Below are positions 6,301 through 60,224 of a DNA stretch of 64,000 bases, one piece after another. The first letter of the stretch is position 1; the number at the start of each line of letters is the position of its first letter. Below the pieces are notes generated by a model. It did no database searches, was not told the origin of the DNA, and saw nothing but the letters and a program-made list of their open reading frames with translations. The stretch is from Triatoma infestans. Its lineage: Eukaryota; Arthropoda; Insecta; Hemiptera; Reduviidae. The stretch covers positions 62,001 to 126,000 of the forward strand of contig JAAEAF010002403.1 of NCBI GenBank assembly GCA_011037195.1, read 5' to 3'. The translations under genes and the position numbers were made by a program.

Positions 6301-9300
6301 ACCGGAAGTACCACTTTATTAGTTGTTTTTTTTTACGTTTTTGTGATTTTCTCAAAAAAAAAAAATGGCTCCAACGATTTTCTTCAAACTTGGTATATGA
6401 ACTACACATACAAAGAGCTACAACTTTTATTTGAAATGTTTCTCCGGGAAAATTCATTTAAGGGCACTTCTGGGGGAGGGGTGGGGTTAGGTTTTCATTT
6501 AAAGTGCCATTTCAGTTTATTAGACAATTCTGCCGTCTAATGGTAATTAGAATTGAATATGTTGTTGAAATTCCGAGTTTGAAAAAAACGGATAACCGGA
6601 AGTAAGTTTACTTTACCACTTTATACTAAATGATTTTTTTCACTTTTTCGCGATTTTCTCAAAAAATGGCTGTGACAATTTTCTTGAAACTTATAATATA
6701 AACTAAACATCATTTATTTAAAACATTTCTCTGGGAAGATTCATTTAAGGGCACTTTTAGGGGAGGTGTGGGGGCTTACAGCTTTCTCTAAAGTGCTGTC
6801 ATAGTTGATTATACAATTCTATCATCCAAAAAAAAATTAATTACAAATAAATAGATGGCCAAAATTCCGAATTTCAAGAAAATTAGTAAACCGGATGTGC
6901 GCTTTTACTGAACAGTTTTTGTTTCAGTTTTCGGCGAATTTCGTTAAATTTGGTACACAAACTATAAAATTTGTCAGTTATAATTTTTAAGAACTGGAGT
7001 AAGAGAAAGTTGTGTGAGTGTTTCACACCAGATTTTTTTTAGATAAAGCCTTGCAGGCGATCAATTTTTTTTTTTTTTTTACTTTCTCTTATGAGTTATA
7101 ATTCGAGTTTTCATCAGAAAGTTCCTTGAGTACGGAAAAATTGTTTTTAGCCAATGATCTGCATGTGTGTGTGTGTGTGTGTGTGTGTGTTTGTGTGTAT
7201 ATATGAACAAAATATCTAAAAAACGAAATCTCGCAAGAAGCTTAATATTTGGTATCCCCGTTTAAGTACTATCACACGCATATTATACGAAGTTTTTTCC
7301 GGGCAAAATCCATTACTCCGGATGTAAGACTTCACTGACTGTTTTTTTTTTTCAATTTTCGCAATCTTCTCGAAAAATCTCCAACGATTTTTCATAAATA
7401 ATACTAGCATTAGACAGTTTTAGAATTCTGTAGAGGTTATTCAACTTCACTCAAGACAGTGTGGATATTTTTTTGTTTTTTTGTTCCTGACTCATCAACA
7501 CCAAGTTTATGTGAGACTGATATATTTTAGGGTTTCCAATTTTTAATTAAATTGGAATTTCCTGAATGAAAGCGGAAATTCCAAAATATAATGAACAATC
7601 TAGTTTTTCTCTTTATTAGCATTCATTAATGAGATCATCTAACCACAAAAATGTTTCCTTTATAAAACTCTAACTTTCCTTAGTTATTTATTTTATTTTA
7701 TTTTTTCTACAAAAGATAATGAACTTACCATGACTGACGAGGGTGGTGGATAAAAGTAGCGTTGTGGAGATACTGATAAATTTGGTATTGATAGGTCAGA
7801 TGGTGATGCAGAACTAGTTGGTTCTTCCTTCATCATTAATATCTGCCTTCGTAATGTTGAATTTCTAGGGCCTCGCTCATGTTGTACAGCTGATATAAAT
7901 ATTAAAAAAAAAAAAAGAAAACAATTTTTGGAATCATTTAAATATGTATTTTAATAATAATAATAAAAAAAAAGAAAGATTAAAAATCAGAAATATTAAT
8001 CAGCTTACCATCTCTGTTCATGCCAGCTTCAAGACATTTACGTAATCTACATGCCCGACATTGATTTCTATGGGTTTTATCTACTAAACAGGTACCATCA
8101 CCTTTTGCTTTGCAAACATATTGTCTATTTCGGCGTATTGATCTCTGTAAAAATGAATAATTTATATACTTATTTAATACGATAAAAATTATGGTAAGAA
8201 TTGTTTATGGGAAAAACTGTTTAAATTAGCCCAGTGCAATTAAATATTAAGATATATTGTTTTTAATAAAAAACATCAGATGAATTTTATGTCTGAGAAT
8301 TCGTACCCAGTACAACATTTACGAAACTAAAAAAGATGATCGTAGTTATAGAATAACAAAATAGAGGTGTACTTCCCAGATGCTGGCTGAGAGTTTGTTT
8401 TAGTTCAAAATGCAGGAATATAAATATCTAATATCTAGTACAGGATGGAAGAGCTGTTAAATTCTTTAGGTCATTAACTCTATCCTGTAATTCAGGTTCT
8501 TAGTTGTGTGTACAGAATGGTAAATATCGCAAGCTATACCGGCTAACGTTCTCTTAAGAAGTTGTGGTGGTTCGTTCCGCAGACCTGGAAAGCATCAGAG
8601 ACATTTTCCGTGGTAGCCTGCTTCATTTTGTGGTCATCGACCGGTTTCGGGCGTTCGCCCATCTTCAGGATGCGTTTTTCAGGCAGTGTGACAACACAGA
8701 CTTGCACAGAGCAAATTTAGTTTACACACTCAATTTACTTGTAAAAATAGTTAAGATACTTAGCCTCACTGGCTCTATAGTTGTTGGGTGGTTGGTTCCG
8801 CAGAGCTGGAAAGCATCAGAGACATTTTCCGTGGTAGCCTGGCTTCATTTTGTGGTCATCTTGCCGGTTTCGGGCGTTCGCCTACCTTTAGGGTGTGTAA
8901 ACTAAATTTGCTCTGTGCAAGTCTGTGTTGTCACACTGTCTGAAAAACGCATACTGAAGATGGGCGAACGCCCGAAACCAGTCGATGACCACAAAATGAA
9001 GCAGGCTACCAAGGAAAATGTCTCTGATATTCTCTAAGAAGATTGGGTCATACCAAGTATACTGCTTGAATCTTCTAGTAGAAGAAATTCTTGACAAAAG
9101 GAAGAGGTAATGTTGGCAAGCATCCTTATTTAAGATGACGGAGGAAAAAGGACACTTATTGAGCTTTTTAAGCAACGGATTAAATGCAGAAGAGATAGAT
9201 CTTGAAGAAGTGTGAGGCCTCTTCTACTATTGAAAAGAAAATAGATATCTTTATGGAAATAGAACTATAGAAAATTATAGAGGAAGGTTAGAAAAGTTCT

Positions 9301-12300
9301 ACAGTGATCCTTCTCAGCGGATATTTGAGGGCAAGTGAGCTTCTTCGGTTGTCCGCTCTTGAAAGAAAGAAAAGGGGTCATAATAAATAATTAATCAGCA
9401 ATGGATCGGGCAATTGAATTCGCTTGTGGCATAAATATAGAACACCACTTCATATGGTCTTTGGGAATCGTGAAAAAAAAAGTTTTAAATTTTATGTATA
9501 AATTAAGTAAAGTAATGCCTACTTTGTCAGGCGGGCTTAACGTCCATCTACCAAATTAGGTGTCGTGGACGGGGGCCGAAGCACCTACCTGTAACATTTT
9601 TCATACCAATATAAAATTTAGCAGTATAACGCAGGATCGAACTGGGGTCCTCCCACTTACAAGTCAATGTTCATAACCACTATACCAACACCCGCCCCTA
9701 AAAGTATAAATTAAGTTCCTCAATTATTTTATTTTCCTAAGAAAATTTACAAAACTAGGACAAGAAAATGAGAGGAATGTAGGAAAAAAGAAAGAAACAA
9801 AAATCCAAGATAGAACCAGAAGGACAAAATTGCAATAAAATACGACAGTACACTCCTCAGACTTTTAATTCACACTTTATTGACATCTTCAAATGTTAGA
9901 GATGAAGAAGCTATAGTTTATTATAATTTGTTTTTTTTTTTTTTTAACTCTTAATATTATTCATTTTCTAAACACTTATCTGATCTACCTTTAAGTTTAC
10001 AACTTATTACAAAATGTAATAAATATGTAAATAATGAATGATGAAAACAAGCTATAAGGAAGTTTTATCTAGTTAAAAAAATAAAAGTAAAAATGTCTCA
10101 GAATTATATAGGCTACTGTTCGAATGTTTATTGTATGAATAACCAATTCTATTAATAACCTGCATATGTATGTTGACATCATATTATAAATATTTGAAAA
10201 CATATCAACAGTTAACCAATTTAATTTAATTATAAATTTAAACATAAAGTTTACCCATATCCTCAGGTTATGTTTTGTTAAATATGATAATATAAATAAA
10301 TAAATAAATAAATTAAAAAAATTGAAAATATAAATAAAAATTACTAAGAATGATTTGCTACTTATATAATGGCTTATAAATTTATTTTTGCCACTTTTTT
10401 TTGTGTGAATTACGCATTAATTATAATACTGTCATTACTTATAATTTACAATTAGGGAGCTTACTTTTTTTGTAAAGATTATTTATTAATTTTTTTGAAT
10501 TTTTTTTTTGCTTATAGATAACTTATAAAACATTCGGTTTACTTTTTCACTTTTAAAGCAATTCTCAATTTGAATTAGATAATTTTTTTGTCTAAAGCAG
10601 CATTTTTTTCAACACATGTCTGTATGAATATATGAATAATGGTGATGCTATTATATTAAAAATCCCGTGTGAAACACTCACACGACTTTCTCTTACACCA
10701 GTTAATAGTTATAGGGTGCCTAGTTTTTCCAACTCTAATGTATAACGCTTTTTCTTATTATAATTTATTTGTTTAATTGCCCTAATAATTAGAATAGAAT
10801 AGAAGTGGGGGGGGGGAGCCTCATTCCACTGCGACCTACAAATTGAGGTCTATTGTGGATCCCCTTAAGTTACAGAACAGCCCCCAGCTTTGCCCTCCTA
10901 ATCAATCCTAGCAAAGCTGAGAGCGGCTCCGTCATGAAGCTTCCAGCTTCGGGATTGCCCGTCCCCAATTGAAGAAACCTAATCCTCGCCAGGCCGGCGC
11001 ACTCACAAAGGATGTGCGCCGGGGTCTCCTCCTCTACCTTGCAGAATCGGCATACCGCACTATCCGCAAGTTGTAGGTGGTGCATGTGTCTATTCAGCCT
11101 ACAATGCCCTGTTAGTAGACCCACAATTAACCTTATATCCCTTCGGGTCTGGCTCAGTAGGTCTCTGGTAAATTTAGGCAGATGTCTTTTAATGAAGAGC
11201 TTTGCCTGCCTCTGTCCAGGTGTTCCCTCCCACCAACGCAGACGCTGATCTTCTAACCAACACCTGATAGAAGTTTGGATGAGACTCCTGGACAAGCCGC
11301 AGAAGGGTTCGGGGCCTGTAAAGGAATCCTGCGTACCCTCCCTCGCTAGGGCATCCGCCCTCTCATTGCCCAGGAACACCGCATGTCCCGGCACCCAGGC
11401 GAGTGTCAGTTTATTCCGAGTACCCACCTCGGTGAGGGCAAGTAGGCAGTCCCACACCAGTCTTGAGACTATTTGGGCGTGAGGAAAGTGCCTTCAGGGC
11501 TGCCTGACTGTCGGAGTATATGGCCACTCTTCTACCCACTATCCTTTTGCCCTAATAATTAGTTCGATTCCTTGTTTTTTAAGTTGTTATGAGATACTAG
11601 ATTTCGATTGAAATAGTTCATACGTAGAATACCATCCATCTTTTTAATATTCTTTCAATACTTTGTGGATTGCGTCACATACATAAAGTTGAGAGCAATA
11701 TTCGCTAAAAACTGCAGGTCGAAGAAAACTTTTTATGGGAGTTTAACATCAATTTTATGTTGTCCCACTAGTCTGCACGGCCAAAATTCAAAATGGGACT
11801 CTTGAATTGCCGCCTAATACTCTTCTTTTTTTGCCTTATTTGCCAACAATGGAATGAAAATTCTGAAATTTTTCTTTATAACTCACAGTATTATAAAACA
11901 GTAAATATTATGGTAAAAATAACTTGATATTTTTTCATTTTTTTTTTTTTAAACGTTTTATGGCACAATTTGTAAAAAATTAATAAAAAAATGTCTAAAC
12001 TAGTTTTTTCAAAGAAATAATTAGCTATATTAACCATCAGAATATAGAACAGAAGGTGTGAAATATGGATGTATATTAGGCTAAACAAAAATTTAGAATT
12101 ACCATATTGATCACGCCCATATTTGGTACCCTTATTTCTACACTGTGATTGGTTAATTATTTATTTGAAAAATCTAGTTCTGCAATAAAATTTTGTTTAT
12201 AAAAAATATGCAAAAAATCAAGTTATTTTTAATATATTATTTACTGTTTAATATATAATTAATGTAAGTTATAAAGAAAAAAATTCCGCATTTTCATTCC

Positions 12301-15535: not shown

Positions 15536-15706
15536 AATAAATTAATAAATAATAAATTAATTAGGAATGAGTTTTTCCTTACACTTTATTTCTTAAATTT
15601 CAAATTACTGATTTTATTCATTCACAAGAGTTTATTAAATTTTTACTTTCTATTTTGTAAATTGGATGTTGAGGTTCGGTCATACAAAAGAACTCTTTTT
15701 AATTTT

Positions 15707-15746
15707 CTACCGACGTTTCGGCAAATTTATTGCCTTCTTCAGGGTA
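15707..15746 (-). ncRNA. Hammerhead ribozyme, family C, complete core
   Basis: Minus strand: stem I TACC, core CTGAAGA, one extra A, stem II GGCAA/TTGCC around a 5-nt loop, GAAA, palindromic ACGT with cleavage triplet GTC, then stem I GGTA. Stem I can be extended by several more A-U and G-U pairs. All helices differ in sequence from family A but pair equally well. It lies upstream of the first known tll exon, in sense orientation. Confidence 0.8.
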
Positions 15747-15864
15747 AAAATTTTCAGTTAGAATTACTTATAAAGTCTAGTTTAACCTGTGACATACCAC
15801 AACACTTGATGATGGTATGTCACAGGTTAAACTAGAGTTTGTAATAATTCTAATTGAAAATTTA

Positions 15865-15903
15865 TACCCTGAAAAAGGCAATAAATTTGCCGAATCGTCG
15901 GTA
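15865..15903 (+). ncRNA. Decayed hammerhead in the second arm of the family C palindrome
   Basis: Stem I (TACC/GGTA) and stem II are kept, but the core reads CTGAAAA and GAAT, losing required G and A residues. It is predicted to be inactive. Confidence 0.55.
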
Positions 15904-16004
15904 GAAAATTAAAAAGAGTTCTTTTGTATGACCGAATCTCAACATCCAATTTACTACAACATTGAATACAGCGGCCGTAACGATCACCAAAACAGTTTTA
16001 TTTT

Positions 16005-22096: not shown

Positions 22097-22988
22097 CGAG
22101 GAGTGTAAATTAAGTAATGAGACTGATTTTTTATCTTTTTTTTATTCAAATAAAATTACAATTCAACATTGTCCCCTTCAAAGTAACTACCTTGGGAAGC
22201 CACACAACGCTGAAGACGATTCTTCCATTCGTCATAGCAGTGCTGGAACTCGGATACTGGAATAGACTTCAGTTGGTCGGTTACGGCTGTTTGAATATTC
22301 TCCAATGTTCAAAATGACTCGTCCCTTGAGGTGATAACACGTTCCAAAAAATTGGGATCGTTTTCAATTGCTCCCAAAAAGTCAAGGCTTCTTTCCTTTC
22401 TGATGTCTTTTTGCTCTTGTGAAAGATTTTTCGGAACCATTTTTGCACAAATTTTTCTCATCCCCAATTCATTAGTCAAAATTTGATGAACGGTTGTGTG
22501 AGTCAAATTCAACTCTTCGCCGATCATTCGGACTGTCAAACGACGATCTGAACGCACGAGATCGCGGATTCTGCCAACATTTTCGTCGGTTCTTGAAGAT
22601 GAAAGCCTTCCGCTGCGAGGCTCGTCTTCAATTGATTCCCTTCCTTCTGCAAACGACTTAAACCACCTAAAAACCTGTGCTCTCGACAAAACATTGTCTC
22701 CATAGGCCTGGCACAGTTTTCAAACGTTTCCGTTGCACTGTGCCCAAGTCTGAAGCAAAACCTGATAGCACAACGTTGCTCGTAATTGATGTCACTCATT
22801 TTTAAAACGCACTGAAAAAACCTTGCTCACAAAAAAGCCACTACGGACAGTGCAACAACTCTAGCATTTTCAAATTTGCACTAGAGTGTATCAGATGTTT
22901 ACTTGCCCTACCACGCATGCGCCGCGTCTCCAGTGTTGCAAGATCGAACACTAGAAAATCAGTCTCATTACTTAATTTACACACCTCG
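22097..22988 (-). mobile_element. Internally deleted mariner element with terminal repeats and TA duplication
   Basis: Terminal inverted repeats of about 34 bp begin CGAGG(A/T)GTGTAAATTAAG, pair across 892 bp with a single difference, and are bordered by TA on both sides. An intact mariner is about 1.3 kb, so roughly 400 bp are missing. It is nested in a 1-kb repeat copy. Confidence 0.93.
22156..22799 (-). pseudogene. Mariner transposase pseudogene
   Basis: The frame opens MSDINYEQRCAIRFCFRLG, then shifts near residue 27 and continues SRAQVFRWFKSFAEGRESIE (helix-turn-helix domain). It runs on to VPKNLSQEQKDIR and RVITSRDESF, the first catalytic Asp region. The catalytic core is then deleted and the frame resumes as PVSEFQHCYDEWKNRLQRC, ending SYFEGDNVEL at a TAA. 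With two catalytic Asp residues lost it cannot transpose itself. Confidence 0.92.
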
Positions 22989-25350: not shown

Positions 25351-25365
25351 AACCAACAATTTGTT

Positions 25366-25530
25366 GTGGTGGTTGGTTCCGCAGAGCTGGAAAGCATCAG
25401 AGACATTTTCCGTGGTAGCCTGCTTCATTTTGTGGTCATCGACCGGTTTCGGGCGTTCGCCCATCTTCAGGATGGGTTTTTCAGACAGTGTGTCAACACA
25501 GACTCGTACAGAGACTTAGTTTCACACTAA
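25366..25530 (-). mobile_element. Family A unit, single arm, inserted beside family B sequence
   Basis: One arm from TTGTTGTGGTGGTTGGTTCC to ACTCGTACAGAGACTTAG, with the opposite arm missing. It directly follows the family B arm ACAACCAACAAACCAACAAT. Confidence 0.8.
25434..25474 (-). ncRNA. Hammerhead ribozyme, family A, complete core
   Basis: Stem I CATC/GATG, core CTGAAGA, stem II GGGC/GCCC with GAAC loop, GAAA, ACCGGT and GTC cleavage triplet are all intact. Confidence 0.78.
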
Positions 25531-25534
25531 CTCG

Positions 25535-27100
25535 TTATAATGATTTTTTTCCATTATTACCAATTAAGAATTATGTTCTATACTCATTTTTTCAGGTACA
25601 GAGTATTACTCAATACGGGGCTTACATTTTTATTGTCTCTATATCTTTTAAACAGTTTACAAATTTTGGCGGTTTCCTAGTTAATACGAGTATTTCCAGG
25701 CCGGATGTAGGGAATCATTCTTTGATACAGATATAATCAAAGCTGTAAAGATTTCCAAATTATCCTTATTATATCATTGTATTCAGTACCTAATAAAAAG
25801 CAGGTGGTTCTGCTTTTATGTAAAAGAGGGTTTAAAGAAACAAGGGGAAGTATCTATGTGGGGACGGATTTTACACTTTTGATGGCTTCTGATGCAAGAA
25901 CATTATGAGATTCCTGAGGAAGTCAGGTCAAAGTCAGTACAAATAAAATTATTACTGAGTGAAACAGACTGGATATTTTCTTACAGAATTTCTTAAATTT
26001 CAACTTTCTTTTTTTTTTCAAATGTGGTATTTTTATAATACTTTAGTGTAATTTATTCAGAATTCCCCTAGAAATCCGCTGAAACTAATATTATGGGAAA
26101 TATATGTTAACCAATCAGTAAAATTGCCCGGTCAGTCTATATTTTGTCCGAAGTCATTATTTACGGTACTTTTACGAGTTATCAATCAGAAGTCCAAAAC
26201 TTAATAGCTTGTTTAGGGTATCAGAGAACTCTCTCTTGCTTCAGCTCGGGTTTTTTTTAAGTAATAAAAGGTTGAGATATTACGATGTATTATGTATAAA
26301 CGCTTCATGAAGCACAAGCCCCTAAGTGCTTTTTCTTTTCCGAGTTTTAGTTAAATGTTCAAATTTCATATTTCATTTAGGTGTAAAAAAAAGATCGTTC
26401 CTTTGGCATTGATTGCAGAGGCCATAACTTTTTTTTTATTACGCCTGTGAATCGGTGGCGGAATGTACCATTAGGTATCGTGCTGCCCAGTAAAGTCTGG
26501 ACAGGCTATAACCATGAAGAACCATTTTACTGAACGGATTTATCAAAATCGCAAAATACTACAAACATACAAACTCATTTATCGTCAACAGCGTAAAATA
26601 AATTTAAAAGAAACGTTAAAAAAAACAAACAAAAAACAGACGGATTTATTCATTTTTTATAGAAAAATATTCTTCATTAGATGCTATTTTAGATTTGAAT
26701 ACTTTAAATAGACCAATTGACAAAACCATGTCTAATTATATGTCAGTACAATTATTACGAGATGTTTATGCCTGCAATGGCTAGTGGAAATTCTTCTCAG
26801 TGTAAATTGCTGTAGGGTTTCGGACATGATTAGTGCCCTTTTTCAGGAGCTCTACTCTTTTTTTTTTTATCCATCCCATCTTTTAACTGTTTTTAAAATT
26901 TTAAAAATACTATCCCATCATTTCAATCTCTCCTACCCCAAAAGTATCTTTATCTTTTTTTTACTTTCTCTTACTGTTAATGATGGTTATTGCATTTAAT
27001 TAAATGTCCACTTCTGGGTTATAATTTCTTGTTTTTTAATATCTTATGTTTAATATTTCTTTAATTTAAAAATTGTTTTGTTTCCTTTTTTATTTGCTCT
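25535..27100. other. Non-coding stretch, nothing recognised
   Basis: Mixed AT-rich sequence. The open frames are short and low in complexity. No repeat family of this window is present. Confidence 0.5.
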
Positions 27101-27104
27101 TATA

Positions 27105-28050
27105 TACTTCCTAATAAGAGGAAGTATTGCAATCGTGTCAAATTTTCAATATCGAGTTTACACCGGAAATATCCGTTTTGAGGTCCCCTGAGTTAAAAAA
27201 AGTGGTTTTTAGCAAATGGTTTGTGTATGTGAACAGCATAGCTCAAAAACGAAAAACCGTAGAAAGTTGAAACTTGATATTCCGTTTAGGTATCACCATG
27301 GGATCCAACAGTGGGTCATCTGTCAAAATTCCTCAACCGGAAGTACTACTTTACTAGTTGTTTTTTTTTACTTTTTTGCGTTTTACTTTTTCTCAAAAAT
27401 GGATCGACGATTTTCTTCAAACTTAGTATATCAACTACCATACAAAGAGCTACAACTTTTATTTGAACGTTTCTCTGGGAAAATCCATTTAAGGGCAGTT
27501 ATGGTGGAGGGGTAGGGTTAGGTTTTCCTCTAAAGTGCTATTTCAGTTTATTAAACAATTCTCTCATCTAAATAAAGTTAATTAAAATTGAATATGTTGT
27601 TGAAATTCCGAGTTTCCAAAAAATCGGATAATCGAAAGTGCGTTTACTTTACCACTTTACTAAATGATTTTTTTTTTATTTTTCGCGATTTCCTCAAAAA
27701 TGTCTCCGTCGATTTTCTTGAAACTTCTTATATACAAAGATCTACAACTTCTACTTGAAATATTTTTCTGGGAAAATTCATTTAAGGGCACTTTTACGGG
27801 AGGGGTGGGTTTATGTTATTCTCTAAAGTGTTATCATAGTGGATCATACAATTCTATCATCCAAAGAAAATTAATTAGAAATAAATAGATGGCCAAAATT
27901 CCGAATTTTAAGAAAATTAGTAAACCGGAAGTGCGCTTTTACTGGACAGTTTTTTCAGTTTTCGACGAATTTCATTAAATTTGTCAATTATAACTTGGAA
28001 AACTGGAATAAGAGAAAGTTGTGTGAGTGTTTCACACCAGATTTTTTCTT
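27105..28050 (+). repeat. 1-kb dispersed repeat, copy e
   Basis: Starts ACTTCCTAATAAGAGGAAGT, contains CAGCATAGCTCAAAAACG and CTCAACCGGAAGTACTACT, and ends AGAGAAAGTTGTGTGAGTG, TTTCACACCAGATTTTTT. Confidence 0.85.
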
Positions 28051-31100: not shown

Positions 31101-31239
31101 ACATTATTGGAAAGTTTAACTATTGTATTGTTTTAGTGACTGGGAGAGGAGGTTACAAAGAAGGAATTTGAGGAAGAAGTTTTGTTCAATTCAATTCCTC
31201 ATTGCCATAGTAACTAATTATCATTCAATTCCTCAATTT

Positions 31240-32266
31240 TTTTTACTTTCTCTTACTCCTAGTAAGGGAAAGTATTGTAATCGTGTCAAATTTTCGATAT
31301 CGAGTTTTCACCGGAAATATCCGTTTTGAGGTCCCCTGAGTCCAAAAAAGTGGTTTTAGCAAATGGTGTGTGTGTGTGTTTGTGTTGTTGTTTTGTGTGT
31401 GTGTGTGGTGTGTGTGTTGTGTGTATGTATGTGAACAGCATAGCTCAAAACGAAAAATCGTAGAAAGTTCAAACTTAATATTCCGTTTAGGTATCACCAT
31501 GAGACCCGACAGTGGGTCATCTGTTAAAATTCCTCAACCGGAAGTACCACTTTACTTGTTGGTTTTTTTTACGTTTTTGCAATTTTCTCAAAAATCGATC
31601 TAACGATTTTCTTCACACTTTCTATATTAACTACACATACTAACAGCTACAACTTTTATTTGAAACATTTCTCTGGGAAAATTCATTTAAGGACACTTAT
31701 GGGGGAGGGATGGGGTTAGGTTTTCATCTAAAGTGCTATTTCAGTTTATTAGACAATTCTATCATCTAAATAATGTTAATTAAAATTAAATATGTTGTTG
31801 AAATTCCGAGTTTGAAAAAAATCGGATAACCGGAAGTGCTTTTATTTTACCACTTTACTAAATAATTTTTTCACTTTTTCGCGATTTTCTCGAAAATGAC
31901 TCCGACGATTTTCTTGAAACTACTTATATAACTAAACATACAAAGATCTATAACTTTTATCTAAAACATTTCTCTGGGAAAATTCATTTAAGGGCACTTT
32001 TAGGGGAGGGGTGGGGTTACAGCTTCCTCTAAAGTGGTATCATAGTTGATTATACAATTCTGTCATCCAAACAAAATTAATTAGAAATAAATAGATGGCC
32101 TAAATTCCAAGTTTTAAGAAAATTTGTAAGCCGGAAGTGCGCTTTTACTGAACAGTTTTTTCAATTTTCGACAGATTTCGTTATATTTGGTACACATTCT
32201 ATAACTTTTGTCAATTATAATTTTGAGAACACGAGAAAGTTGTGTGAGTGTTTCACACCAGATTTT
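31240..32266 (+). repeat. 1-kb dispersed repeat, copy f, with matching empty site
   Basis: From ACTTTCTCTTACTCCTAG to GTGTTTCACACCAGA. It is bordered by T8 on both sides. The unoccupied form of the same flanks, CATTCAATTCCTCAA joined directly to T7-ATTG, exists in reverse orientation at about 40830-40860, which fixes both element ends. Confidence 0.88.
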
Positions 32267-32890
32267 TTTTATTGTCATCTCCTTTCTCAATAATTTCAAA
32301 AGTCTTAAAAATAATACAAGTAATTACGCTTCCCTTTATTAACAGTAGTTTCTTAATTTCTTTTATAAGAAACGGTAAAAATGTGTTCAAATTGCAACAG
32401 AGAAAAATGTTAATTTTTACAATACAGATTATTTTAAAATAAACGTAATTTAACTTAAAATAATAAAATTATTTGTGTTTTTTTATATATATTTATGGTT
32501 TGGCACTATTTGATAATGAAATCATCATAAACTTGTTTCAGTACGGAAGTAAATATTTAAACACGCTCTATAAATTCAGTTAAATGCTAAAATATACATA
32601 TGTACAGTTTGGAATTAAGTTCCGTTCCCCCATCACCATAAATTGCAAAGTTCCTTTAATTACGGAAGTTTATATTAGTAATAACTCAGTGTTTTTTCCC
32701 TGTAATATTATTGCACCGATGCAAATTTTGCAGTATATATATGAAGAAGATTAATGCACTCTTGTAACAAATGGTAATAAAAATATTCATGGTTCTAATT
32801 AGTTTAAACTTATCTGAAATATTTAGAAACTCGTAATTTTTTTTAAATAGATATAAAATTATATATAAAACCTCATATATATAATTATAT
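32267..32890 (+). repeat. ~600-bp repeat, inverted partner at 40240-40860
   Basis: The sequence from TCTCAATAATTTCAAAAGTC through GCACCGATGCAAATTTTGCA to AAGATTAATGCACTC recurs in reverse complement at 40240-40860 with high similarity. It appears to be the body of a longer family B element. Confidence 0.85.
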
Positions 32891-32969
32891 ATATATATGA
32901 GACATATACAATCATATATACAACCTCATATATATATAATCATATATATACATAATCATATATATACCA

Positions 32970-33930
32970 CGACATATATAATTTTTATTAACGACCTGCT
33001 ACTAAGGATCTCGGACGTTGTGGTACTTGCATTTGCGGATGACTTGAAATTTTTCCATAAAGTTGCCTCTCAGTCGGACTGCATTATAATTCAAGATACC
33101 CTCCGCATTGTTTCCGACTGGTGCTGCAGTAATGGCATGGAGCTTAATGTTAAAAAATGCCAAGAAATTTCTTTTTATCGTAAAAAGAGTTTTGTATCGT
33201 ATCAGTACCTCATTGATGGCAAACCATTGGAGGTGGACTCGTAACGTGTAGGATTTAGGAGTTACTCTGAGTCATGACTTCTCTTTCACGAATCAGATTG
33301 AATATGTATGTAGGAAAGCATCGAGAGCGCTGGGTTTTCTAATAAGGCACTCTCGTGATCTTAGAGATCCCAAAGTGGTGCTAACTGTGTATAATGCGTA
33401 TGTTAGAAGCCTTCTGGAGTATGCATCGTTGATTTGGTGTCCTTACACTAAGATGGATATAGCTAGACTTGAAGCTATACAAACCCGTTTTATCAGGACT
33501 TTTGACGAAAGGTTATCCAGCGGTGCTACTCATTTCTGCTCTCTAGAGTCTTGAAGCCGTAATGCTGGTTTTCTATTCTTAAAGAAGCTCTTGAATGGTG
33601 AAATTGATTGCATGGCGCTACATGCTGCCATTCCTTTTCATTTACCACCTCGCTGCTTACGCAGTACTTCGCATTTCGTGGTCCCTGTCGATAAGACTAG
33701 TGTGCTGTTCAATGCTGACATCATTTGTAGAATATGCAGGTCATGGAATGAGTATATTCCTAGTGATGTGGATTTCCAAATGGCGTCTGGACTTTTCAAG
33801 AAACATTATTTCACTACTTGAAGTTTTATGTGCATGTATTACTTTACTATTATTATATTTATGTAATACTTGTAACGACTTCAACCATAAGGCTTATGCC
33901 GTTTGTTGATAAAAAGATTAAATAAATAAA
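32970..33930 (+). pseudogene. 5'-truncated LINE (jockey/CR1-like reverse transcriptase end)
   Basis: The frame at 32985-33240 reads FINDLLLRISDVVVLAFADD, the last part being the reverse-transcriptase catalytic motif, then LNVKKCQEISFYRK. After a frameshift: DLGVTLSHDFSFTNQIEY, RKASRALGFLIRHSRD, LLEYASLIWCPYTKMDIARL. A third frame carries the end, NEYIPSDVDFQMASGLF to 33821. It ends in a (TAAA)n tail at 33917-33935 and interrupts a family B element. Confidence 0.85.
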
Positions 33931-34100: not shown

Positions 34101-34437
34101 ACTTAAATGTTTACTTGTCTTCAATTTTATAATATCAATGGGAGAATTTAAATTAAGTAAAATGGCTTTTATTTTGAGCAATACAGTTGCTACACTTTCT
34201 TTGCCATCTTTATGAAATCGATGAATGAGAGCTACTTTCAAGTATCTAAGCCCATCAAAATCTCCACCTAGCTCCCTCAGGGCGCTCCCAAAAATCGTAC
34301 TTAACCCTAGCAATTTCAGAGTTAAATCATCATTCGAGAAACCATCAAGTAAACAGGAAACATAGTTGTTGTGGTTGGTACCGCAGAGCTGCAAAGTATG
34401 AGAGACATTTTCCATGATAGCCTGCTTCTTTATGTGT

Positions 34438-34476
34438 TCATCAACCGGTTTCGGGCTTTCGCCCATCATCAGGATG
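34438..34476 (-). ncRNA. Hammerhead ribozyme, family A variant
   Basis: Stem I CATC/GATG, core CTGATGA, stem II GGGC/GCCC with a GAAA loop, core GAAA. The cleavage triplet is GTT instead of GTC, still a permitted NUH triplet. Confidence 0.68.
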
Positions 34477-34571
34477 TTTTTGTCAAACCGTGTAATAACA
34501 TAGACTTGCATAGAGCAAATACAGTAGATACACTCATTGACAAACTTTGTTGTCACACTGTTTGACAGGTG

Positions 34572-34609
34572 CATCCTGATGATGGGAGAACGCCCGAAAC
34601 CGGTCGATG
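34572..34609 (+). ncRNA. Hammerhead ribozyme, family A, opposite arm
   Basis: CATC, core CTGATGA, stem II reduced to GGG/CCC, GAAA, ACCGGT, GTC and GATG. All core residues are present. Confidence 0.72.
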
Positions 34610-34889
34610 ACCATAAAAAAAAGCAGGCTATCACGGAAAATATCTCTTGATGCTTTCCAGCTCTGCGGAACCAACCACAACAACCACTTGTTTCCTGATT
34701 ACTTGGTGGTTTCTCGAATGATGATTTAACTCTAAAATTGCTGGGTTTAAGTACGATTTTTGGGAGCTCCCTGAGAGAGCTAGGTGGAGATTTTGATGGG
34801 ATTAGATACTTGAAAGTAGTACTCATTCGTTTATTTCATAAAGATGGCGTGACAGAGGAAGTGGAGACAACTGTATTGTATCAACTGTA

Positions 34890-35010
34890 TTTGCTCTGTG
34901 CATGTCTATGTTATTACACTGTTTGTCAAAAACATCCTGATGATGGGAGAAGCCCCTAAACCTGTCGATGACCACAAAAAAAAGCAGGCTATCACAGAAA
35001 ATATCTCTGA
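34890..35010 (+). mobile_element. Decayed extra family A arm
   Basis: Contains TTTGCTCTGTGCATGTCTAT and a motif where GAAA has become TAAA (CCCCTAAACCTGTC), so the ribozyme is dead. It abuts a partial 1-kb repeat (35010-35590). Confidence 0.65.
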
Positions 35011-35590
35011 TGATTTTCTTTAAACTAGTTATATCAAGTACACATAATAAAGCGCTAAGAACTTTTATTTGAAACATTTCTCCGAGAATATTCGTTTAAG
35101 GGGGCTTTTGTGAGAGAAGTGGGGGGGTTATGATTTTTCTCTAGAGTGCTATATTAGTTTATTATAAAATTCTATCTTCTATATAATATTAATTGGAATT
35201 CAATATGTTGTCAAAATTTCGAATTCGAGAAAAATCGATTGACAGGAAGTGGTACATTTTACTGAACCATTTTTCCTTTTTTTTTTTTGCAATTTTCTCC
35301 ATAAACACACTGACGTGTTTTATTAACTATTAATACAGAGACCTACGATTTCCGTTGTAAACACTTTTCCAAGAAAGTTCATTTAAAAACGTTATGGGGG
35401 TTAGGAGAGAGGAAGGTTATAATTCCCTCAAAAAAAAAAAGTCATTTTATTAATTTTGGTATCACCATTGTTATAAAACTGAAGATAAATAAATATTTAT
35501 TAAAAATTATAAGCTTGAAAGAAATTTGACAATTAAAACTTTGTAAACTGCAGTCAGAGGAAGTTGTATGAGTGTTTCATACCAGATTTT
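35010..35590 (+). repeat. 1-kb dispersed repeat, partial and diverged
   Basis: It starts mid-element (GATTTTCTTTAAACTAGTTA) and ends GAGTGTTTCATACCAGATTT. Similarity to the other copies weakens after 35230. Confidence 0.7.
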
Positions 35591-35954: not shown

Positions 35955-36942
35955 TTTTTTTTACTTTCTCTTACTCCTAGTAAGAGAAAGTATTGTAATC
36001 GTGTCAAATTTCGATATCGAGTTTTCACCGGAAATATCCGTTTGAGGTCCCCTGAGTCCAAAAAAGTGGTTTTTAGCGAATGGTCTGTGTGTGTCTGTGT
36101 GTGTGTATGTATGTGAACAGCATAGCTCAAAAACGAAAAATCGTAGAAAGTTCAAACTTGAATTACGTTTAGGTATCACCATGGGATCTGACGGTGCGTT
36201 ATGTGTCAATATTCCTCAACCGGAAGTACCACTTTACTAGTTGTTTTTTTTTTACGTTTTTGCAATTTTCTCAAAAATGGCTCCGAAGATTTTCTTTAAA
36301 CTTGCTATATCAACTACACATACAAAGAGCTACAACTTTTATTTGAAACATTTCTCCAGGAAAATTCATTTAAGGGCACTTCTGGGGGAGGGGTGGGGTT
36401 AGGTTTTCATCTTAACTGCTGTTTCAGTATATTAGACAATTCTGTCATCTAAATAATGTTAATTAGAATTAAATATGTTGTTGAAATTCCGAGTTTGAAA
36501 AAAAATAGATAACCGGAAGTGCGTTTTTACTGAAATATAATTTTCAGTTTTCTGGTATTTTCTCGAAAATGGCTCCAACGATTTTCTTTAAACCAGCGTT
36601 GTTAACTATACATATAAAGAGCTACAACTTTTATTTGAAACTTTTCCCCTGATAAATTCATTTAAGGGGACTTTTGGGGGAGGGGGGTTATGTTTTTCTT
36701 TAAAATGCTATCACAGTTGATTATACAATTCTGTCATCCAAATTGAAATAACTAGAAATTAATATATGACCCAAATTCCGAGTTTCAAGGAAATTAGTAA
36801 ACCGGACAGTTTTACTGGACAGTGTTTTCACTTTTCGACGAATTTCATTAAATTTGGTACACTAACTATAAAATTTGTCAATTATAATTTTGAGTACTGG
36901 AGTAAGAGAAAGTTGTGTGAGTGTTTCACAACAGATTTTTTT
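35955..36942 (+). repeat. 1-kb dispersed repeat, copy g
   Basis: A full-length copy from ACTTTCTCTTACTCCTAG to GTGTTTCACAACAG. Just before it, GAGTGTTTCAAACCAGG is the end of another copy, so two copies abut at a T-run. Confidence 0.88.
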
Positions 36943-40880: not shown

Positions 40881-40881
40881 G

Positions 40882-40962
40882 ATGACCACAAAATGAAGCA
40901 GACTACAACGGAACATGTCTCTGATGCTTTCCAGCCTGCGGAACCAACCACCACAACAATGG
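40882..40962 (+). mobile_element. Family A arm fragment
   Basis: GATGACCACAAAATGAAGCA through CCAGCCTGCGGAACCAACCA, the outer half of the unit only. The ribozyme core is absent. Confidence 0.7.
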
Positions 40963-41825: not shown

Positions 41826-42034
41826 CTTAAATTAAAAAAAAAATTAATTAAAATTAAAAAAAATAAAGTAGATCTAGCAAATAAACATCATAAATTTGAT
41901 GAAGAAACTTAAAATATATAATAATATTAAAAAAAAAATAATAATAAAATAAAAATTAATAAAGTAGAATAGAAAAACGGTAATATTAACAGGATATAGA
42001 TTAATGTTACTATTTTAAATATTATTGATCATAG

Positions 42035-42514
42035 TGTAGTGGAAGAACGAAATTAAAAATAATAGTTTTTAAAAATAATTTAGAATATTTTATAATGTGA
42101 ATTTAACTTCAAGTTTAGTATCAGGTACTGTAAATTGGGATCATACTAAATAGAAAAACAAAGGCACAAATCCCGTTAGGGCAAACCTTTTGTAAGAAAA
42201 TTCCCCCGCGAGAGAGAGCAATTCCAAAGAAGAGAGCCATCAGCTTTAATAGAGTAAAGAGTAGATAGTCTAAACTCAACCTTCAAACAGGACACTTCAG
42301 GAATTGCTCTCTAAATATCAGTGCCAGTTATAAATTAAATAAGTTTATAAACCAAATAAGTTGTTATTATTTTAACAGAATATATTTATTATAAAACAGT
42401 AGTGTGTACTTAATTACTCTTAATTCTTATAATCTATCTCAAGCAAACATACAAGCCCTTTTCGCTAAAACGCTCACGACACAACCAACTACTACAAACA
42501 TCACCAAAATTACA
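42035..42514 (+). repeat. 5' LTR
   Basis: 480 bp, TGTAGTGGAAG...ATTACA. It is nearly identical to the 3' LTR for about 430 bp apart from small indels (A-run, GA-run), then differs over the last ~45 bp. Confidence 0.93.
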
Positions 42515-42534: not shown

Positions 42535-42741
42535 TATTTTCAACAAGAATCCACAAATTTACAAGTACGTAAAATTTCCAATTTAATAATTAAACTAATT
42601 ATCCATCAGATAATTTTATTAACTTTAAATTAGTTTCTCAACGGAAGTATCTAAATATTTCCCATAATTGAATTTTTATTGAATTTCATTTTTCAATTTT
42701 TGTATTTGCACCCTTATCCCGTGTGAATTTGTATTTCCAAA

Positions 42742-43947
42742 ATGTATAAAATTAACGGACAAAACATGAAAATCGACGCCGCTGTAGAGTATTTGCTTGC
42801 TCAGCAACAATTAGCAAATCCTCCCACCCCCAGCAATCAACCAGCTAGTTCTTTAAGAAATTTACAATTAATTAATAGTTTACCTACTTTCGATGGCGAA
42901 AATTCAGCCAAAGTGTCCGATTTCCTAGACCAAATTAGCCATTGTGCTAGTCTTTCTGGCTGGGACGACGCTGCCAAATTAGAAATATTAGCACTTAGAC
43001 TCTCAGGGTCTGCAAAAATATTTTATGACACCCAGAAAGCGGAATTACAACGCCAGGGTACAACTATAACGTATCCTCTAATTTCAGAGCGACTTCTAGC
43101 CCGATTTCGTAAGGAGAAAACACCCCTAGTCCTCTTACAACAGATGACTAATATTCAGTCCTTGCCCACTGAGTCTCCTGAAACATTCGCGGATAGGATT
43201 AGACATATCCAATCCGCCATTCATTTAAAAGCTCAAGCTAACCCACTCGAGGCCTTACAAACAATTTTAGATAAACTGGCCACTGATGCATTCTTGAAGT
43301 CACTTCCTCAACCGCTTTGTAATGAGGTGCGAACGAAGCTTCCTCAAAAATTAGATGAAGCACTTTCCTATGCCAATGCCCTAAAAGAAGTTCAGGCTTC
43401 TGAAACAAACCCCACAGTTTTCGCTGTAACTTCGAAAAATTCAAATCGTACACCTCCATCTCCTTGTCGTTACTGTGGACAAATGCATTTCCACAGAGAA
43501 TGCCCACATCGTAATAAAAGTCAAAAGCCACAATTAAAACCAACTACCACTTGTAGAGTTTTTAATGTAATAAAGAACAGACCTTGTCGCCATTGTTCCG
43601 GTCCACATTTTGACGTGGACTGCACCAACAAATTGCAATCAAAACCTCGTACTAACTTTGGCAAAATGCCTAACAATTTTAATGTACCAAAAAATTTCAA
43701 TAGTAGGGTATATAATAATAATCGTTATAACAATAATAATAATAATCAATATTATAGTAATAATCATAGCCCTCGAATTAATTCAAACAATTCGCGATTT
43801 AACCCTTATTCAGATAGATCCCAGTATAGTCATAATAATGGTAACGAAACTAGCAATCACCTCCAAAATAGGCCCACTTGCCAATATTGTTCAACATTTG
43901 GACATACAGCTCGTAATTGTTTCCAAATACAGCCCAAAACGAGTTAG
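42742..43947 (+). CDS. gag: Gag protein of the LTR retrotransposon
   Basis: A 401-residue intact frame. The N-terminal two thirds (about 35-230) is helical and resembles retrotransposon Gag capsid domains (LPTFDGE, DFLDQI, LRLSGSAKIFYD, FADRIRHIQ). Three zinc knuckles follow: C242-C255 and C282-C294 with CX2CX3HX4C spacing, and C380-C393 with the usual CX2CX4HX4C. An Asn-rich linker (about 310-360) separates the last two. Such proteins form the particle and package the RNA. There is no frameshift site into a pol frame, and none follows. The intact frame implies recent activity. The start at MYKINGQ is the first in-frame ATG. Confidence 0.93.
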   Translation: MYKINGQNMKIDAAVEYLLAQQQLANPPTPSNQPASSLRNLQLINSLPTFDGENSAKVSDFLDQISHCASLSGWDDAAKLEILALRLSGSAKIFYDTQKAELQRQGTTITYPLISERLLARFRKEKTPLVLLQQMTNIQSLPTESPETFADRIRHIQSAIHLKAQANPLEALQTILDKLATDAFLKSLPQPLCNEVRTKLPQKLDEALSYANALKEVQASETNPTVFAVTSKNSNRTPPSPCRYCGQMHFHRECPHRNKSQKPQLKPTTTCRVFNVIKNRPCRHCSGPHFDVDCTNKLQSKPRTNFGKMPNNFNVPKNFNSRVYNNNRYNNNNNNQYYSNNHSPRINSNNSRFNPYSDRSQYSHNNGNETSNHLQNRPTCQYCSTFGHTARNCFQIQPKTS

Positions 43948-45672: not shown

Positions 45673-45686
45673 AGGAGGGGGGATAA
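45673..45686 (+). promoter_or_regulatory. Polypurine tract
   Basis: AGGAGGGGGGATAA stands immediately before the TGTAGT of the 3' LTR, the expected primer for plus-strand synthesis. Confidence 0.88.
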
Positions 45687-46176
45687 TGTAGTGGAAGAAC
45701 GAAATTAAAAATAATAGTTTTTAAAAATAATTTAGAATATTTTATAATGTGAATTTAACTTCAAGTTTAGTATCAGGTACTGTAAATTGGGATCATACTA
45801 AATAGAAAAACAAAGGCACAAAATCCCGTTAGGGCAAACCTTTTGTAAGAAAATTCCCCCGCGAGAGAGAGAGCAATTCCAAAGAAGAGAGCCATCAGCT
45901 TTAATAGAGTAAAGAGTAGATAGTCTAAACTCAACCTTCAAACAGGACACTTCAGGAATTGCTCTCTAAATATCAGTGCCAGTTATAAATTAAATAAGTT
46001 TATAAACCAAATAAGTTGTTATTATTTTAACAGAATATATTTATTATAAAACAGTAGTGTGTACTTAATTACTCTTAATTCTTATAATCTATCTCAAGCA
46101 AACATACAAGCCCTTTTCGCTAAAACGCTACGCTACAAGCCAACTACAAACATTCAAACATCACCAACACATTACA
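45687..46176 (+). repeat. 3' LTR
   Basis: 490 bp. Relative to the 5' LTR it has one extra A, one extra GA and a re-ordered final segment (CGCTACGCTACAAGCC.. instead of CGCTCACGACACAACC..). Confidence 0.93.
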
Positions 46177-49580: not shown

Positions 49581-49648
49581 ACAAAAGTATTGTCGTTGTG
49601 GTTAGTTCCGCAGAGATGGAAAGTATCGGAGATACTTCTTTTTGTGGT

Positions 49649-49686
49649 CATCGACCGGTTTCGGGCGTTCGCCCATCATCAGGTTG
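49649..49686 (-). ncRNA. Hammerhead ribozyme, family A (one stem I mismatch)
   Basis: Core CTGATGA, stem II GGGC/GCCC, GAAA, ACCGGT and GTC are intact. Stem I is CAAC against GATG, with one A-A mismatch. Confidence 0.68.
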
Positions 49687-49802
49687 CGTTTGTCAAACAG
49701 TGTGAGAGAATAGTTTTGCACAAAGCAAATTTAGTTGATACACTAAATATCAACTAAATTTGCTCTGTGCAAATCTATGTTATCACACTGTTTGACAAAA
49801 AG

Positions 49803-49840
49803 CATCCTGATGATGGGCGAACACCCGAAACCGGTCGATG
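49803..49840 (+). ncRNA. Hammerhead ribozyme, family A
   Basis: CATC, CTGATGA, stem II GGGC/ACCC (three pairs plus a C-A mismatch at the loop end), GAAA, ACCGGT, GTC, GATG. The core is complete. Confidence 0.72.
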
Positions 49841-50043
49841 ACCATAAAAAGAAGCAGGCTATTACGGAAGATATCTCTAAAAGTATTGTCCATTTTTTTG
49901 AACATGGTTATTTACCGTACTCATACATGTTTCCATTATTTTTCATGGTTACTTCTTTGGTGTAAAAAGATAATTTGTGGTAAATTTAAATATGACTGAA
50001 GTAAAGTTTGCAAATTAGAGCAACATTAAAGTTTCAAAATATT

Positions 50044-50196
50044 TGTTGTGGTGGTTGGTTCCGCAGAACTGGAAAGCATCAGTAAGTCTGTGTTGTTACA
50101 CTGTCTGACAAACATATCCTGAAGATGGGCGAACGCCCGAAACCGGTCGATGACCACAAAATGAAGCAAGCTATCACGGAAGCATGTCTCTCATGC
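50044..50196 (+). mobile_element. Short family A element with 12-bp target duplication
   Basis: 153 bp: only ~38 bp of the left arm remain, joined to a nearly full right arm. TTTCAAAATATT at 50032-50043 is repeated at 50197-50208, so the shortened form itself probably inserted, unless the deletion came later. Confidence 0.85.
50115..50152 (+). ncRNA. Hammerhead ribozyme, family A, complete core
   Basis: Stem I TATC/GATG (one G-U pair), CTGAAGA, stem II GGGC/GCCC, GAAA, ACCGGT, GTC. Confidence 0.76.
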
Positions 50197-50399
50197 TTTC
50201 AAAATATTGTTGCATCAAGGGAGGCGAGGTGATTAATGAGTGGAGAGGGTGATAATGTGTCAGTCTGTACAGATGTTGGTGTTGGAAAATTAGAGATGAT
50301 TAGCGATATAAACCTAGGGACCAGACCCCCCGTGACTGATTTAGCAATCTATCACGTTTGTTAGAAGATTTTTCCCGGTAAAGTTCTATCAAAACTTTA

Positions 50400-58600: not shown

Positions 58601-58614
58601 ACAATAACTTCATT

Positions 58615-58851
58615 GTTGTTGTGGTTGGTTCCGCAGAGCTGGAAAGCATCAGAGACATTTTCCATGATAAACCCGTCTTCATTTTGTGGCCATCGACCGG
58701 TTTCGGTGTGTGAGTGTGTAAAACTGAATTTGCTCTGTGCAAGTTTGTGTTATCACACTGTATGTGACAAACACGCATCCTGAAAATGGGCGAACGCCCG
58801 AAACCGATCGATGACCACAAAATGAAGCAGGCAATCACGGAAAATGTCTCT
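58615..58851. mobile_element. Family A hammerhead palindrome P4 with 12-bp target duplication
   Basis: 237 bp. The left arm is truncated inside its ribozyme (GACCGGTTTCGG then GTGTGTGAG). AATAACTTCATT at 58603-58614 recurs at 58852-58863. The plus-arm ribozyme at 58776-58813 has CTGAAAA (required G changed to A) and CCGATC, so it is likely dead. Confidence 0.87.
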
Positions 58852-59093
58852 AATAACTTCATTCTTTCGTAATTTTTACTAATTTGACATTACATAAACT
58901 ATATGAACTTCATGTCCTTGTTTTTTTTTGTTTTTTGTTATTTTTACATTCTCTTACTACGGTAAGAGAAAGTGTTGCTATCATGTAAAATTTTGAAATT
59001 GATTTTAACCAGAAAATTTGTTGTGGTGGTTGGTTCCGCAGAGCTGGAAAGCATCAGAGACATTTTCCGTGGTAGCCTGCTTCATTTTGTGGT

Positions 59094-59131
59094 CATCGAC
59101 CGGTTTCGGGCGTTCGCCCATCTTCAGGAGT
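59094..59131 (-). ncRNA. Hammerhead ribozyme, family A (stem I shortened)
   Basis: Core CTGAAGA, stem II, GAAA, ACCGGT and GTC intact. A small deletion leaves ACTC opposite GATG, so only two stem I pairs form locally. Confidence 0.6.
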
Positions 59132-59268
59132 TTTTCAGACAGTGTGCCAACACAGACTCGTATAGAGTAACTTAGTTTCACACTAACTAGTGTGAAACTA
59201 GGTAGTAGAGTTAGTGTGAAACTAAGTTACTCTATACGAGTCTGTGTTGGCACACTGTCTGAAAAACG

Positions 59269-59306
59269 CATCCTGAAGATGGGCGAACGCCCGAAACCGG
59301 TCGATG
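59269..59306 (+). ncRNA. Hammerhead ribozyme, family A, best copy
   Basis: CATC, CTGAAGA, extra T, GGGC-GAAC-GCCC, GAAA, ACCGGT with GTC, GATG: every expected position is present. Flanking TGTCTGAAAAACG and ACCACAAAATG could add loop contacts to stem I. Confidence 0.82.
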
Positions 59307-60224
59307 ACCACAAAATGAAGCAGGCTACCACGGAAAATGTCTCTGATGTTAACCAGAAAAATTTCAATGTGTGTGACCAAAAAAATAACGTTTTTAGCGA
59401 AAGCTTAGTGTGTGCGTGTGTGTGTGTATGTGCAGTAGTATCATCATGTATAGTATTAAGCAACATTAAGAGTATTGCTAGAATCTTAAATTTGAAGAAA
59501 ATCGATTAACCGGAAGTGCCACTTTACAGATTATGTTTCTGGGATTTTTTCGGGGGGAGGTCCTCAACTCTTTTCTATTTTTGAGATCACTTTTATTGTT
59601 GATTTTTGTGGGAGTTCTGAGGATTTTTGTCAGTAGATTTCAATGTTATTTGGATTTGATGGAAGCGCTGCCTTCTGGATTAGGATTCCATGTGCCAATC
59701 TGCAGAGAACCAATATATATTTATTTCCTAAATGTCATAAAATCAATTTTATTGGAAAAAAATGTTTCAAATAAAACTGATAGGTTCATATCTGTTCAGT
59801 TAGCAGTTCGAGTTAAAAAAAAAATTCATCGGAAACGCTTTCGAGTAAATCCCCCTCCCCCAACTCGGAATCTTATTCTGTAAAATCACACTTCCGGTTA
59901 ACCCTCTTTTTTTAAAATCTGGTTTTCTAGTAACGATTTTAATGTACCTTACTTAGTATTATATAATTCATAGGGTATGTCCACAAGTCTTGTGCGCTTT
60001 CCTCTTCCTCTTCCCTCTCAACTTGCGCTTCCTCTTTTCCATTTCAACATGCGTTGCGCATGCCTCTTGAGGCATTCAATTTTGTTGTCCACACTTCATC
60101 CGTTCAGTGTGCATTTTAACGATGGATTCAGAAGCGTCATTAGCTATTTGTGCAGGTTACCTGTTTTTGAAAAGTGCACGAAAAAGAAAAAAAGCAGCGA
60201 GCTGCTCATCTTATGAAACCATTT

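Follow-up and report, generated by a model that had tools for sequence, protein, structure and literature searches.

A stretch of 64 kb from the genome of Triatoma infestans, referred to throughout as the window, holds at positions 59017 to 59348 a palindrome with a hammerhead-like core in each arm. An initial annotation took this palindrome for a complete, non-autonomous, ribozyme-bearing mobile unit, which raises the question of whether such a structure moves as it stands or is the by-product of another element. We consider it very likely that it is an insertion of a Penelope-like element (PLE) containing the beginning of that element only, twice and head to head, and that it arose by priming on both target strands, through a protein presumed to be that of a PLE and by steps whose order we have reconstructed.

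An exact duplication flanks a near-perfect palindrome

The opposed arms are as nearly perfect as the annotation had described them. Positions 59044 to 59129 are 97% complementary to 59271 to 59356, and 59130 to 59188 are 100% complementary to 59209 to 59267. Aligned with each other (59053 to 59188 against 59209 to 59348), the arms show 0 substitutions and a sole difference, a 3-nt deletion in the left arm, and the first base of each arm is the same element position. Immediately outside them lies TTAACCAGAAAA, an exact 12-bp duplication around the insertion. Swapping the right ends among this and four related insertions (A, E, F, and G; Table 1) gave a match of at least 6 in 0 of 20 pairings, and 6 of 2,000 random junction pairs shared at least 11 bases. 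Both controls support the sequence duplicated at either side as a target site duplication (TSD).

Eight places in the window carry the repeat family

A BLAST search of the window with the left arm as the query found 16 pieces, the query itself counted, which we grouped into eight places named A to H, H being the insertion at 59017 to 59348. Five of them (A, E, F, G, and H) are two-armed insertions bounded by a TSD. In copy C, both palindrome arms continue beyond the tail, and a third arm, which lacks the tail, follows them.

Table 1. Features of the repeat family, given as positions in the window
Feature	Positions	Strand	Remarks
Insertion A, two minus-strand arms and one plus-strand arm	8549..9041		TSD TTCTCTTAAGAAG against TTCTCTAAGAAG, by eye
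Copy B, single arm with tail	25359..25532	-	No TSD found
Copy C, longer palindrome, arms 84% alike	34179..35016		No TSD at the ends tried
Copy D, single arm with tail	40881..40961	+	5' end at predicted hammerhead cut; no TSD found
Insertion E, CTGATGA-core subfamily	49583..49890		12-bp TSD AAAAGTATTGTC
Insertion F	50032..50208		Left arm approximately the tail only, right arm ~112 nt; 12-bp TSD TTTCAAAATATT
Insertion G, two-armed	58603..58863		12-bp TSD AATAACTTCATT; left arm truncated near the hammerhead
Insertion H, left TSD copy TTAACCAGAAAA	59005..59016		12 bp
Insertion H, left putative PLE arm with tail: 5' UTR, hammerhead core, ORF start, AC-rich tail	59017..59188	-	3' end outward (left)
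Insertion H, tail, left arm only	59017..59051	-	35 nt (34 with the query starting at 59018)
Insertion H, putative PLE ORF start, left arm with tail	59017..59121	-	105 nt
Insertion H, left-arm hammerhead-like segment	59094..59131	-	Helix I of 2 bp
Insertion H, central filler between the 5' ends of both arms	59189..59208		20 nt
Insertion H, right putative PLE arm without tail	59209..59348	+	3' end outward (right)
Insertion H, right-arm minimal type I hammerhead (sequence motif)	59269..59306	+	
Insertion H, putative PLE ORF start, no-tail version	59279..59348	+	70 nt of ORF
Insertion H, right TSD copy	59349..59360		12 bp

The TSD is exact and 12 bp long in four of the five two-armed insertions (E, F, G, and H), and 9 to 11 of its 12 positions are A or T, in a window that is itself about two-thirds A/T. 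The duplication at insertion A is 12 to 13 bp with an indel; because of that indel between TTCTCTTAAGAAG and TTCTCTAAGAAG, a scan for exact matches yields 7 bp. No duplication was found at copies B, C, and D at the ends tried.

All five two-armed insertions have a tail at one end and none at the other. The outer end with the tail reads CCAC(M)ACAAC(AA) and the outer end without it reads RTCTCT(GATG); the two types lie 34 to 38 nt apart in all five, this being the tail-specific stretch. Coordinates of the arm ends were set by hand from the BLAST results, and the inner end of the left arm of E (E_L) and the right end of H were set by eye. The tail end is the left side in all five TSD-bounded insertions, an arrangement that has a 1 in 16 probability of arising by chance.

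These ends bear on whether the insertions could be fold-back or MITE-like DNA transposons with long inverted repeats, to which near-perfect inverted arms and a target duplication would be equally suited. We regard such an origin as extremely unlikely, since the ends are asymmetrical, with the tail on one side only in all five cases, since the 5' ends of the arms differ between copies, and since the one-armed copies B and D exist. In addition, we know of no DNA transposon superfamily that has a constant 12-bp duplication.

Each palindrome appears to have formed at its own insertion

The two-armed insertions differ most at their centers. Between the arms lie a 20-nt filler in H, TGTGTG in G, CACT in E, and TA in F, and the arms abut directly in A (boundaries partly by eye). 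The five insertions thus have five different duplications, five different centers, and differing arm lengths. Since both the duplications and the centers differ, each palindrome formed at insertion, so that it would have been made anew each time from PLE RNA and not itself copied.

We therefore rejected the palindrome as a mobile unit, its center differing from one insertion to the next, and with it the description of this locus as a complete non-autonomous element. Its content does not support completeness either: the anole PLE is reported to have needed its first 172 nt to insert in vitro (PMC11167929), and no arm of H holds more than ~105 nt of the ORF start. A self-sufficient, non-autonomous ribozyme element resembling a retrozyme, transcribed, cleaved, and copied as a unit, would account for the hammerhead cores, the small size, and the repeated copies, and animal retrozymes of ~170 to 400 nt with type I hammerheads have been described (PMC7229834). 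The locus is like them in being small and in having a type I hammerhead. Its arms are inverted, however, and not tandem, they overlap a coding start, the left ribozyme of H has a helix I of 2 bp, and centers and arm lengths vary among all five two-armed insertions, all of which makes a retrozyme-like unit very improbable.

Two arms could also match because one was copied from the other, or from antisense RNA, through snap-back self-priming during a PLE insertion, an origin that the authors of the work on rotifer Penelope elements proposed in their Discussion (PMC3846280). In insertion F the arms hold 35 and 101 nt that are private to one arm, and in insertion G they hold 35 and 74 nt; F is nearly without a palindrome because its left arm comprises hardly anything beyond the tail. 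Since the arms of F and G have mutually unique sequence, neither arm was copied from the other, barring a later central deletion. If A3R is paired with the arm A2L, the corresponding figures for insertion A are 35 and 55 nt; most of A3R is also present in the outer left arm, A1L, however, which makes A an equivocal case. In E and H, everything in the right arm is also present in the left, and these two, taken alone, fit the copying of arm from arm.

Whole-arm identity gave a mixed answer. The arms of E are mutually closest, those of H are closest or near-closest, and A1L and A3R are 97% alike (BLAST), all of which, like the lack of substitutions between the arms of H, is in keeping with snap-back; the arms of G, in contrast, are not mutually closest. 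Moreover, a hairpin copy is not expected to yield two different outer ends together with a 12-bp TSD. On balance, we judge snap-back self-priming to be doubtful, though with a real chance of being correct. The pattern in F and G favors separate priming of reverse transcription by each cut strand, with later central deletion as a possible alternative.

The arms probably span the start of a PLE ORF

Reading outward, the right arm of H runs CATC-CTGAAG-ATG-GGCGAACGCCC-GAAAC-CGGTC-GATGACC..., and the left arm has the same sequence except that ACTC replaces CATC. The ATG at 59279 to 59281 of the right arm overlaps core position A9 of the hammerhead motif, and the predicted cut falls 24 nt inside the ORF that the ATG at 59279 opens. 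The left arm ends at ...CCACCACAACAAA and the right arm at ...GTCTCTGATG, 105 and 70 nt into this ORF, respectively. At the inner side, both arms of H and copy B share the 5' start AGTTAGTGTGAAACT, and A1L, A3R, and the right arm of G (G_R) start at or beside AGTGTGTAAA (boundaries partly by eye); we read these shared starts as the putative 5' end of the RNA. Each arm is thus probably the junction between the 5' UTR and the ORF start of a PLE, whose protein we infer.

The copies carry the ORF start, copy C somewhat more of it. The protein characteristic of PLEs is a telomerase-like reverse transcriptase with a GIY-YIG endonuclease. Of the 24 ORFs with 110 or more amino acids, 10 were searched against Pfam, and no reverse transcriptase or GIY-YIG domain was found with any copy. 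Three of the 10 scanned ORFs had matches, and these were fragments of other elements. With the beginning of the copy C ORF as the query, two protein searches returned no relatives, and exact-pattern scans of viral and genome contigs returned no match. As neither a reverse transcriptase nor an endonuclease was found with the copies among the ORFs scanned, the PLE identity rests on architecture, of which three features are present: a hammerhead sequence motif at the pLTR/ORF start; two outer ends with a tail stretch between them and an AC-rich end, in five insertions; and inverted head-to-head pLTRs with a TSD, again in five insertions, B, C, and D having no TSD that we could find. The link to Penelope-like elements and the reading of the locus as a retroelement insertion with a target duplication and hammerhead-type cores, both present in the initial annotation, were right.

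Other repeats share the window. The fragments with Pfam matches lie at 22309 to 22719, 32885 to 33241, and 10870 to 11490 and include an HTH of the Mos1 type, a reverse transcriptase domain, and an RNase H match that is weak and under the curated cutoff; none of them adjoins a PLE copy. Direct repeats of ~490 bp at 42031 to 42514 and 45683 to 46176 are 96.8% identical, and between them an ORF of 406 amino acids (42727 to 43947) has Cys/His-rich stretches and no Pfam match; together they may be an LTR retrotransposon of recent origin. Another repeat family, dispersed and ~900 to 1,000 bp long, has many copies in the window (6054 to 7039, 27086 to 28047, 31239 to 32271, 35957 to 36942, and others).

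The closest parallel by description is PAc (Poseidon of Anolis carolinensis), a PLE of the Penelope/Poseidon clade (PMC11167929). Its ORF begins at hammerhead stem II and its cut lies 26 nt in, against 24 nt here; both have stems I and II of the hammerhead at the ORF start. Reverse transcription of PAc is reported to start at two adjacent internal sites, the commonest being an AC-rich stem loop 111 to 118 nt into the ORF, and the optional 30- to 40-nt tail of its genomic copies is the stretch between these two starts (PMC11167929). The Triatoma family likewise has two adjacent candidate start sites, the AC-rich one ~105 nt in, and a tail of that size. The likeness is one of description, and the Triatoma family is represented in the window by short ORF-start fragments.

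Penelope of the rotifer Adineta vaga is described as having inverted head-to-head pLTRs with palindromic junctions, TSDs of 8 to 10 bp, a 31-bp tail at one end, and an inverted pLTR that is 37 bp shorter (PMC3846280). The Triatoma insertions share the head-to-head pLTRs, the tail at one end, the shorter pLTR at the other, the palindromic junctions, and the TSD, and they differ in that the TSD is 12 bp and in that an ORF or captured DNA lies between the rotifer pLTRs. To call the head-to-head palindrome unusual, as had been done, was therefore too strong, inverted pLTRs with an optional tail having been described for Penelope.

A minimal hammerhead motif with putative activity

Both arms of H contain CTGAAGA, a stem II of GGGC/GCCC, GAAA, and GTC; a single additional T separates A9 from stem II. 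In the right arm, CATC and GATG form helix I, the extra T is at 59280, stem II occupies 59281 to 59292, the sequence ACCGGT is palindromic, and the predicted cut is at 59302/59303. The 3-nt deletion in the left arm reduces helix I there to 2 bp (ACTC against GATG), and as a consequence the plus strand alone of H passes our hammerhead descriptor. The hammerhead-like core described in each arm is real, with the correction that helix I of the left arm is broken.

The hammerhead core is defined by C3, U4, G5, A6, G8, and A9, by G12, A13, and A14, by the pair A15.1-U16.1, and by H17. We tabulated these positions in the 12 arms that have the whole segment, leaving out A2L, which starts inside the core; D and the left arms of F and G (F_L and G_L) are without a core. 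All twelve constrained positions fit in 10 of the 12 arms, the exceptions being G8 to A in G_R and G12 to T in the arm C3R of copy C. Position N7, at which a hammerhead accepts any base, is A in seven arms and T in five, a split that follows the subfamilies. Helix I is fully paired in all but A3R, E_L, and the left arm of H (9 of 12), and helix II has at least 3 bp in every arm, with a fourth pair in nine. Within the family, no compensatory changes were found in the stems; one variant, C-G to T-G in helix I, keeps pairing, and the others are breaks.

A general hammerhead descriptor matched 8 sites in the window, 7 of which lie in the repeat family and are copies of one sequence rather than independent matches, against 10 matches in 500 dinucleotide shuffles. 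A stricter descriptor had 7 matches in the window against 2 in 300 shuffles. The covariance scan that had been proposed as a check went against the annotation, as the Rfam hammerhead models gave no match at the gathering threshold or at E values of up to 10. Rfam matches to miRNA precursors, e.g., MIR5380, had scores below gathering and were set aside as long-hairpin artifacts of the palindromes.

Elsewhere in the window, 15657 to 15954 is a second head-to-head palindrome, unrelated in sequence and with the same hammerhead-like motif. On the minus strand (15742 to 15712), this motif has a helix I of 8 bp, a 5-bp stem II, and GAAA-CG-TC, with the sense strand pointing outward and one extra base (A) between A9 and stem II; the core in its right arm has decayed. 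The Rfam hammerhead models did not match this palindrome. We infer that it too is a PLE product.

The hammerhead likeness might be coincidental, the conserved letters being PLE coding and 5' UTR sequence. The lack of an Rfam match and of compensatory change within the family, as well as the mispairing of the core in predicted folds, would be consistent with coincidence. We nevertheless think it improbable in view of the excess of descriptor matches over shuffled windows, the occurrence of the motif with different stems in the second, unrelated palindrome, and the equivalent position of this motif in the anole PLE, for which cleavage has been demonstrated (PMC11167929).

Whether the RNA cleaves itself is a separate matter. 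The helix III segment, after GAA, is ACCGGU, which has no loop and cannot close in cis. Folded in silico on its own, the right arm is predicted to form helices I and II, with the CTG of the core paired to CGG; when two arms were co-folded, the prediction was an extended duplex instead of a double hammerhead. The full plus-strand transcript is predicted to fold into a hairpin of -284.5 kcal/mol in which each core is paired with its complement. The earlier proposal that both transcripts could self-cleave is doubtful given the 2-bp left helix I, the lack of a helix III in cis, and a hairpin that buries both cores.

Hammerheads of PLEs are described as minimal type I motifs without helix III that are possibly active as dimers (PMC7761336, PMC6155905). 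The motif here shares the type I layout and likewise lacks a real helix III; its helix III segment is a six-base palindrome, ACCGGU. We take it for a minimal type I PLE motif without a closed helix III and with putative activity, and both the element and the ribozyme belong to known kinds. Cleavage, if any, would probably take place in a dimer held by the self-complementary ACCGGU or with the aid of protein; cleavage of the PAc hammerhead was reported only with its protein present, and PAc ribozyme mutants retained insertion (PMC11167929). Those arms that span the cut site we read, as in PAc, as putative copies of uncleaved RNA. Copy D starts within up to 4 nt of the predicted cut, the uncertainty arising because AATGAT repeats in the target could have supplied GATG, and this single case is suggestive of a possible cDNA of cleaved RNA.

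A model of paired priming

In the model that we favor for 59017 to 59348, a PLE protein on its mRNA would cut both target strands 12 bp apart, and both freed 3' ends would then prime reverse transcription at internal sites near the 5' end of the mRNA. One start would be the AC-rich site ~105 nt into the ORF, which would give the tail, and the other would lie 35 nt upstream. Each cDNA would extend across the start of the ORF and the still uncleaved hammerhead as far as the RNA 5' end, and the two cDNAs would be joined 5' end to 5' end with the 20-nt filler between them. Because synthesis would start near the 5' end of the mRNA, a transcript without an upstream tandem copy would yield only short pLTR pairs, which would explain why there are several in the window. 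The cutting and extension of both target strands, which we propose here, have been shown in vitro for PAc (PMC11167929).

We searched the literature to which we had access, most subscription papers being outside it, and found nothing on Penelope-like elements with twin priming, which does not establish priority; for Penelope head-to-head pLTRs, the same search returned PMC3846280 as the only match.

With their TSDs, their single tailed and single tailless ends, and the unique arm sequences of F and G, the insertions bear on how PLEs make inverted pLTRs. The 2013 study favored self-priming on an antisense template, to which it ascribed the palindromes of Adineta vaga (PMC3846280), and the 2024 in vitro study saw both strands extended but left the subsequent steps unvalidated (PMC11167929). 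In our reading, the set, which is small, fits the rotifer architecture, but priming on both strands in a paired manner accounts for it better. We see an even chance that these natural insertions record a PLE priming both strands of a fixed 12-bp staggered cut, one strand at the tail site and the other upstream of it; the palindromes and inverted pLTRs of PLEs would in that case arise directly from such priming, with run-off at the 5' end of the RNA, and not from antisense self-priming.
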